Of a stretch of 64,000 bases of DNA, positions 25,857-26,384 are shown in pieces. The DNA comes from Acidobacteriota bacterium. Lineage in GTDB: Bacteria > Acidobacteriota > Terriglobia > Bryobacterales > Bryobacteraceae. The position numbers and the translations under genes were made by a program. The stretch's first letter is position 1. Each line of letters starts with the position of its first letter. The stretch covers positions 46,683-110,682 of the forward strand of contig JANXRE010000171.1 of the NCBI GenBank assembly GCA_025353165.1, in the 5' to 3' direction. The notes under the pieces were generated by a model, which saw only the letters and a program-made list of their open reading frames with translations, was not told the DNA's origin and made no database searches.

Positions 25857-26384
25857 CTATTTCGGGGTGCCCTTCACCCGCTTGCAGGCCGTTTCGGCGC
25901 CGGTCGGATCGATTGCGGCACTCCCTTCCTGAATGTCGGCGATCTTCCCCTCTGGGTCGATGATGAAAGTCACCCGATTTGCCAAGCCCGCCGGAAGGAG
26001 GACGCCGTAGGTTTGAGAAACCTTCCGATCGTGGTCGCTCAGGAGCGGGTACGCGGCGTCGAGTTCTTTCGCCCAGTGGCCCAGGGTCGCTATGAAATCC
26101 GTGCTGACGGCCAGCACCTGCACATCCATATCCTTGAACTTTTGGATACCAGACTGGTATCCGGTGATTTCCTTTGTTCAGCCACCCGTGAACGCGGCCG
26201 GGAAGAAGGCGAGGACGACGACCTTGCCCTTATAGTCCGAGAGCTTGTATTCCTTGTTCTCCGCGGCGGACGCGCCTCGAAGGGTGAAGTCGGGCGCGGC
26301 GTCTCCCGGCTTGAGGTGGGTCTTGCCGGGCGTGTCGGCGGCGAGAAGGCCCGCAAATATCGCGGCCAGTGTGATTAGTTTCAT
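25857..26384 (-). CDS. Peroxiredoxin with UGA (selenocysteine) at the peroxidatic position
   Basis: 175 residues if the in-frame TGA at 26178-26180 is read as selenocysteine (residue 69). The ATG at 26384 follows GGAG and begins a signal-like MKLITLAAIFAGLLAAD. Before the TGA the frame gives PGDAAPDFTLRG and VVVLAFFPAAFTGG; after it TKEITGYQ, VLAVSTDF and RVTFIIDPEGKIADIQEG. Together they make one complete thioredoxin-fold AhpC/TSA (BCP/PrxQ-like) protein. The TGA replaces exactly the catalytic Cys of the TGGCTKE motif. A Cys near residue 167 could be the resolving residue. A perfect hairpin follows the TGA. The alternative is a nonsense mutation, but its position and the hairpin favour selenocysteine. 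Role: peroxide reduction, probably in the periplasm. Confidence 0.8.
26144..26162 (-). promoter_or_regulatory. Candidate bacterial SECIS hairpin for the peroxiredoxin UGA
   Basis: On the minus strand GGATACC and GGTATCC form a perfect 7-bp stem around the loop AGTCT; the pairing can extend to 9 bp. The loop begins 22 bases after the TGA codon, within the spacing known for bacterial SECIS elements. It carries GU like the E. coli fdhF apical loop bound by SelB. Confidence 0.65.

Follow-up and report, generated by a model that had tools for sequence, protein, structure and literature searches.

Does the TGA triplet inside a peroxiredoxin gene of a Bryobacteraceae bacterium break the gene in two, or is it translated? 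The gene lies on the minus strand of a 64,000-nucleotide stretch of DNA from a member of the Acidobacteriota (positions 46,683 to 110,682 of contig JANXRE010000171.1, assembly GCA_025353165.1; hereafter the window), and an earlier note on this DNA had called it a probable selenoprotein. Judging from the sequence, we are nearly certain that it encodes a peroxiredoxin of the AhpC/TSA family whose peroxidatic UGA is read as selenocysteine (Sec), predicted to be directed by a conserved downstream hairpin. The note's proposal is borne out by the presence of Sec genes in the genome, by a codon column that holds TGA or cysteine codons only, by a hairpin that accompanies the TGA, and by constraint on the part beyond it.

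A listing of open reading frames under genetic code table 11 splits the gene into two pieces (26489-26178 and 26129-25857). Read through, the frame has a single stop before its end, the TGA at codon 69; the earlier note had counted exactly one interruption, and its gene boundaries were correct as well (Table 1). It had given the motif at this site as TGG-C-TKE: the position holds, but the letters read FTGG-U-TKE, not C, within the active-site motif FFPAAFTGG-U-TKE (P62-AAF-T66-GG-U69-TKE). PxxxTxxU is described as the motif of the Prx selenoprotein family (PMC13188914). Since both this motif and the domain PF00578 are present, the gene belongs among the Prx (TxxU) selenoproteins.

The search for homologues covered 237 genomes of the family, 232 of which match at E 1e-10 or better. 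We aligned 180 copies at 178 loci, own copy included, made up of 150 family rows among the matches listed (again with the own copy), 29 rows from a phylum sample (out of 44 besides the own one), and L022, one named Bryobacteraceae contig; as L022 is the same stretch as L129, 179 copies are independent. In the column of U69 we found TGA 153 times, TGC 26 times and TGT once, and no other codon, which is the Cys-or-U pattern that the earlier note had proposed to look for. The phylum sample of 396 genomes contains 44, the own one among them, with a match at E 1e-30 or better; each of the 45 rows has one TGA, placed at the U69 column in all 29 that were aligned. The TGA form occurs in at least 121 of the 237 family genomes: among the 142 with a fetched copy, 121 have it (six of them next to a Cys copy) and 21 are Cys-only, i.e. 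have no TGA copy among their fetched copies. At two loci, L103 (G060:C135) and L133 (G123:C299), a TGA copy stands in tandem beside a Cys copy without hairpin.

Beyond the TGA the sequence is evidently maintained as protein. Compared with L035, dN amounts to 0.206 upstream of the TGA and to 0.220 downstream of it (dS 1.33 and 1.92, near saturation); five other distant pairs gave dN values of 0.19-0.34 before and 0.23-0.30 after it, with dS near or past saturation. After the TGA, dN is at most 0.008 in four of five close pairs and 0.053 in the fifth, at dS values of 0.06-1.21, and the close pairs L046/L048 and L137/L144 show few nonsynonymous changes there. Nonsynonymous change is thus as rare 3' of the TGA as 5' of it, in line with the note's view that the downstream part is intact.

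The hairpin, announced in the earlier note as 7-9 bp with a GU-containing loop some 15-22 bases after the TGA, was recovered with an 8-bp stem and the loop GUC, starting 15 nt 3' of the TGA. The 51 nt from the TGA fold with -14.5 kcal/mol (z -3.47; none of 200 shuffles as stable), and when the codons of the own gene were randomised synonymously with the amino acids fixed, a stem of at least 8 bp arose in only 318 of 50,000 draws; the hairpin of this gene exceeds chance. For bacterial selenoproteins, one criterion in use is a stem-loop shortly after the UGA whose small apical loop contains a G (PMC1088965), and the loop GUC conforms to it.

Among the relatives we compared ungapped 48-base stretches from the codon onwards, counting as a stem at least four contiguous pairs round the same 3-base loop. 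Such a stem is found in 148 of 153 TGA copies versus one of 27 Cys copies (133 of 138 versus one of 27 when only distinct 48-mers are considered). Synonymous shuffles that preserve the protein produced it in 2.6% of draws over all TGA copies, equivalent to 4.0 expected of 153, and other same-phase positions of the TGA genes have it in 1.4% of cases (290/20,202). Presence of the hairpin therefore tracks the TGA, not the protein sequence. Three stem positions show pair changes on both sides (CG 115/UA 21, AU 130/GC 5 and AU 133/UA 3). When the 3' partners were redealt among sequences, at most 641 paired cells were reached in 500 shuffles, compared with 664 of 690 observed; the high conservation of the stem keeps this margin small.

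The own genome (98.4% complete, 200 contigs) contains the full set of Sec genes searched for, all above curated cut-offs: tRNA-Sec (74.7 bits, cut-off 47; anticodon tca according to ARAGORN) on C156, selA (481 bits, cut-off 268) on C68, selB (378 bits, cut-off 242) on C93 and selD (362 bits, cut-off 125) on C12, the last with an in-frame TGA of its own. A genome devoid of selenocysteine machinery, which the earlier note had named as a refutation, is therefore not what we see. Within the family, selB (E 1e-60 or better) was detected in 106 of the 121 genomes with the TGA form, and tRNA-Sec in 14 of the remaining 15, so that 120 of 121 have one or the other. In total, selB went undetected in 22 genomes. 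Seven of these are without tRNA-Sec as well, namely G053 and six of the seven Cys-only genomes that have no selB (one of the six, G070, being just 62% complete). In genus g8, the Cys copy L148 comes from a genome (G046; 98% complete, 4 contigs) that yielded no hit for selB or for tRNA-Sec, and the other six fetched copies (L135, L139, L141, L151, L155 and L157) all carry TGA.

On the tree, the two forms exchange repeatedly. A quick tree, built with the U69 column masked, leaves 70 of 175 inner branches open and has several long end branches, including that of the query; its best version requires at least 13 Sec/Cys changes, six of them forced by starred branches. In independent tree pairs the hairpin goes with the codon in 5.7 of 6 cases on average (the p values of the sign test have a median of 0.031 and range from 0.031 to 0.219).

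Some observations weigh against translation of the UGA as Sec under control of the hairpin. The stem is absent from five of the 153 TGA copies (L080, L092, L197, L210 and L211), and one Cys copy, L052, still has it; the genome of the latter (G083) possesses selB and tRNA-Sec, and the copy looks like a recent switch. The most informative of the two-sided pair changes, CG to UA, needs only two changes on the tree, so the compensatory evidence amounts to a few events. Fold energy by itself gives a modest contrast (median z -1.33 for TGA versus -0.45 for Cys copies, p 0.001), and a search of 2.5 kb of sequence surrounding the gene at E values up to 10 gave no Rfam family that matches the hairpin. 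Finally, the TGA form is present in G053 (79% complete), where both selB and tRNA-Sec were looked for without success, and selB occurs in 14 of the 21 Cys-only genomes, so that having the machinery does not oblige a genome to use the Sec form.

How else could the interrupted frame be explained? A pseudogene, arising through a chance nonsense mutation or a sequencing error at codon 69, would agree with the split under table 11 and with one public protein record, P0096, that comprises only the second half after the TGA. It would have to account for a TGA at the same codon in 153 of 180 copies, with TAA or TAG in none, for the few nonsynonymous changes after it and for a hairpin that follows it; we rejected this explanation as extremely improbable. 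No more credible is a UGA that stands for another residue, either tryptophan throughout the genome or cysteine by way of another suppressor tRNA. Three public records (P0002, P0003 and P0005) do have W at the Sec position, apparently because the source read TGA as Trp. On the other hand, 28 of the 180 copies end at a TGA 104-113 codons further on, and 22 of these 28 have TGA-69 too; the sole alternative in the column is Cys, never Trp, and the genome has the Sec gene set. Genome-wide reassignment of TGA was rejected on these grounds. A third alternative, also very unlikely, denies that the hairpin is a selenocysteine insertion sequence (SECIS) and explains it as an intrinsic terminator belonging to the other strand, or else as a side effect of the codons for YQSGI. 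A scan did report a terminator-like site on the plus strand (26142-26164), but it gave two sites versus 1.4 in shuffles; the codons as such yield the stem at the low rate of the synonymous shuffles given above, and the stem is missing from 26 of 27 Cys copies. The terminator was accordingly dismissed.

If UGA-69 is read as Sec, a likely course of events can be outlined. SelB carrying Sec-tRNA(UCA) would bind the hairpin and decode UGA-69, as the genes and the hairpin suggest, and the protein is predicted to leave the cytoplasm by means of its leader. For the signal-like N-terminus that the earlier note had pointed to, hydropathy alone makes a fair case: in 89% of the 180 copies, hydropathy reaches 1.6 or more over a stretch of ten residues near the N-terminus. 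Following the peroxiredoxin motif PxxxTxxU, the U69 selenolate would attack a hydroperoxide and become a selenenic acid. One might speculate that a second cysteine, C167, resolves this as a selenenylsulfide, and that an exported thiol-disulfide protein could then reduce the U69-C167 bond. C167 is invariant in the alignment (180 of 180 copies, of the Sec as well as the Cys form) and sits within helix 160-172, the last helix of the structure model, for which 69 of the protein matches P0001-P0120 (the best 120 of 6,972; 12 were read) were aligned. In atypical 2-Cys peroxiredoxins of the Prx5 type the resolving Cys is located in the last helix. In PrxQ/BCP it follows the catalytic one by five residues, although not in all members; position 74, the corresponding site here, is never Cys in the 180 copies. 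A fold search matched AhpE-, BCP- and Prx1-type classes without singling one out; no Prx5-type chain was among the fold matches listed, which excludes nothing. A strict one-Sec peroxiredoxin similar to AhpE of Mycobacterium tuberculosis, with no resolving role for C167, is a real possibility, though we would not call it probable; the invariance of C167 in both forms speaks against it.

Going further, we tentatively propose an exported selenoperoxiredoxin, spread across the Acidobacteriota and distinct from PrxU, that may work via a U69-C167 selenenylsulfide between the catalytic and the last helix; its numerous changes between Sec and Cys, accompanied by the appearance or disappearance of the hairpin, could serve as a natural experiment in what makes bacteria retain selenium. 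The standard code reads the gene as two broken pieces, and the enzyme of these at least 121 genomes is therefore easily missed or mislabelled. With 153 TGA and 27 Cys copies, at least 13 switches on the best tree and a hairpin linked to the codon, the costs and benefits of selenium become testable in one enzyme. Genus g8, with its Cys copy in G046 against six TGA copies, is an example of close natural controls.

Four other genes of the own genome with an in-frame TGA (Table 1) were folded without shuffle control; in all of them a hairpin with a 3-base loop forms no more than 48 bases past the TGA. The hairpin apex CAGGCTG is common to the ResA-like gene and 99 of the 138 distinct TGA-form peroxiredoxin stretches. 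Downstream of the peroxiredoxin gene, the window encodes a histidine kinase and a response regulator. At a locus of the same genus (L037, G231) a kinase adjoining the peroxiredoxin gene shares 65% identity over 414 residues with the histidine kinase of the window; among the 29 loci L034-L062, close kin of this kinase is retained only in L037, and other neighbour matches are weaker and scattered. Being conserved so weakly and patchily, the neighbours gave no clue to function. A scan for the sigma-70 consensus from 25600 to 26800 found nothing.

Table 1. Features of the peroxiredoxin locus in the window and of other predicted selenoprotein genes in the same genome.
Feature	Position	Strand	Basis or remark
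Predicted selenoprotein peroxiredoxin gene, 175 residues plus TAG stop	25857..26384	-	translation with TGA as U; Pfam AhpC-TSA (PF00578), 125.7 bits, residues 26-150
Start codon ATG	26384-26382	-	
Stop codon TAG	25859-25857	-	
UGA within the frame at codon 69 (peroxidatic position), predicted to encode selenocysteine	26178..26180	-	sequence; column TGA/Cys only in 180 copies
Predicted bacterial SECIS hairpin, 8-bp stem, 3-nt loop GUC	26144..26162	-	folding, relatives, synonymous shuffles
Possible ribosome-binding site GGAG, upstream of ATG	26393..26396	-	sequence reading alone
Signal-peptide-like N-terminus, about residues 1-18	26331..26384	-	hydropathy, peak 2.55
C167 codon, second cysteine, last helix, candidate resolving residue	25884..25886	-	Cys in 180/180 copies; model helix 160-172
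Downstream histidine kinase	22798-25683	-	
Downstream sigma-54-type response regulator	20576-22045	-	
selD, predicted selenoprotein, HVKAAGUASK, U19	L221:1947-3071, C12	-	one in-frame TGA
ResA-like predicted selenoprotein, WASWUGC	L218:592-1818, C159	+	286.6 bits, under NF041054 cut-off 300
Two peroxiredoxin-like predicted selenoproteins (UPxC), WUPLC and WUPFC	L217:1058-1909 and L217:4469-5623, C158	- and +	about 2.6 kb apart

Selenoproteins have been reported from Acidobacteria before: a survey of 2006 listed four in three families (PMC1794560), one of which may be kin of the gene described here, and three known selenoprotein genes were noted in one acidobacterium in 2025 (PMC12013277). Among the titles, abstract beginnings and passages covered, our literature search found no description of this acidobacterial form. 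Sec peroxiredoxins with TxxU are known from elsewhere, with 43 genes in the Sargasso Sea (PMC1088965), 91 genes in 78 organisms (PMC5029168) and the enzyme of Eubacterium acidaminophilum (cited in PMC13188914).

The latter is the type member of the selenocysteine peroxiredoxins (Prx, TxxU; COG1225/PF00578), represented in NCBIfam by NF040737 (PrxU). They resemble the predicted acidobacterial enzyme in the Sec that replaces the peroxidatic Cys in PxxxTxxU, in the Sec/Cys pairs among relatives and in a hairpin after the UGA. In contrast, the gene of the window scores 83.3 bits with NF040737, under the PrxU equivalog cut-off of 270 bits. It also has a leader-like N-terminus and the invariant Cys in the last helix, which may be further differences from PrxU. 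From AhpE of M. tuberculosis, a 1-Cys peroxiredoxin, the acidobacterial enzyme differs by a predicted Sec in place of Cys and by the presence of C167, and Bcp/PrxQ proteins such as Bcp4 of Sulfolobus differ by the Cys five residues past the catalytic site, which the 180 copies lack. The Prx-like thiol:disulfide oxidoreductase selenoproteins share PF00578 and Sec at the active site, but their motif is UxxC instead of TxxU; the own genome contains two UPxC genes alongside (Table 1). Sec peroxiredoxins with TxxU are thus already known, and the acidobacterial gene adds to that wider family.
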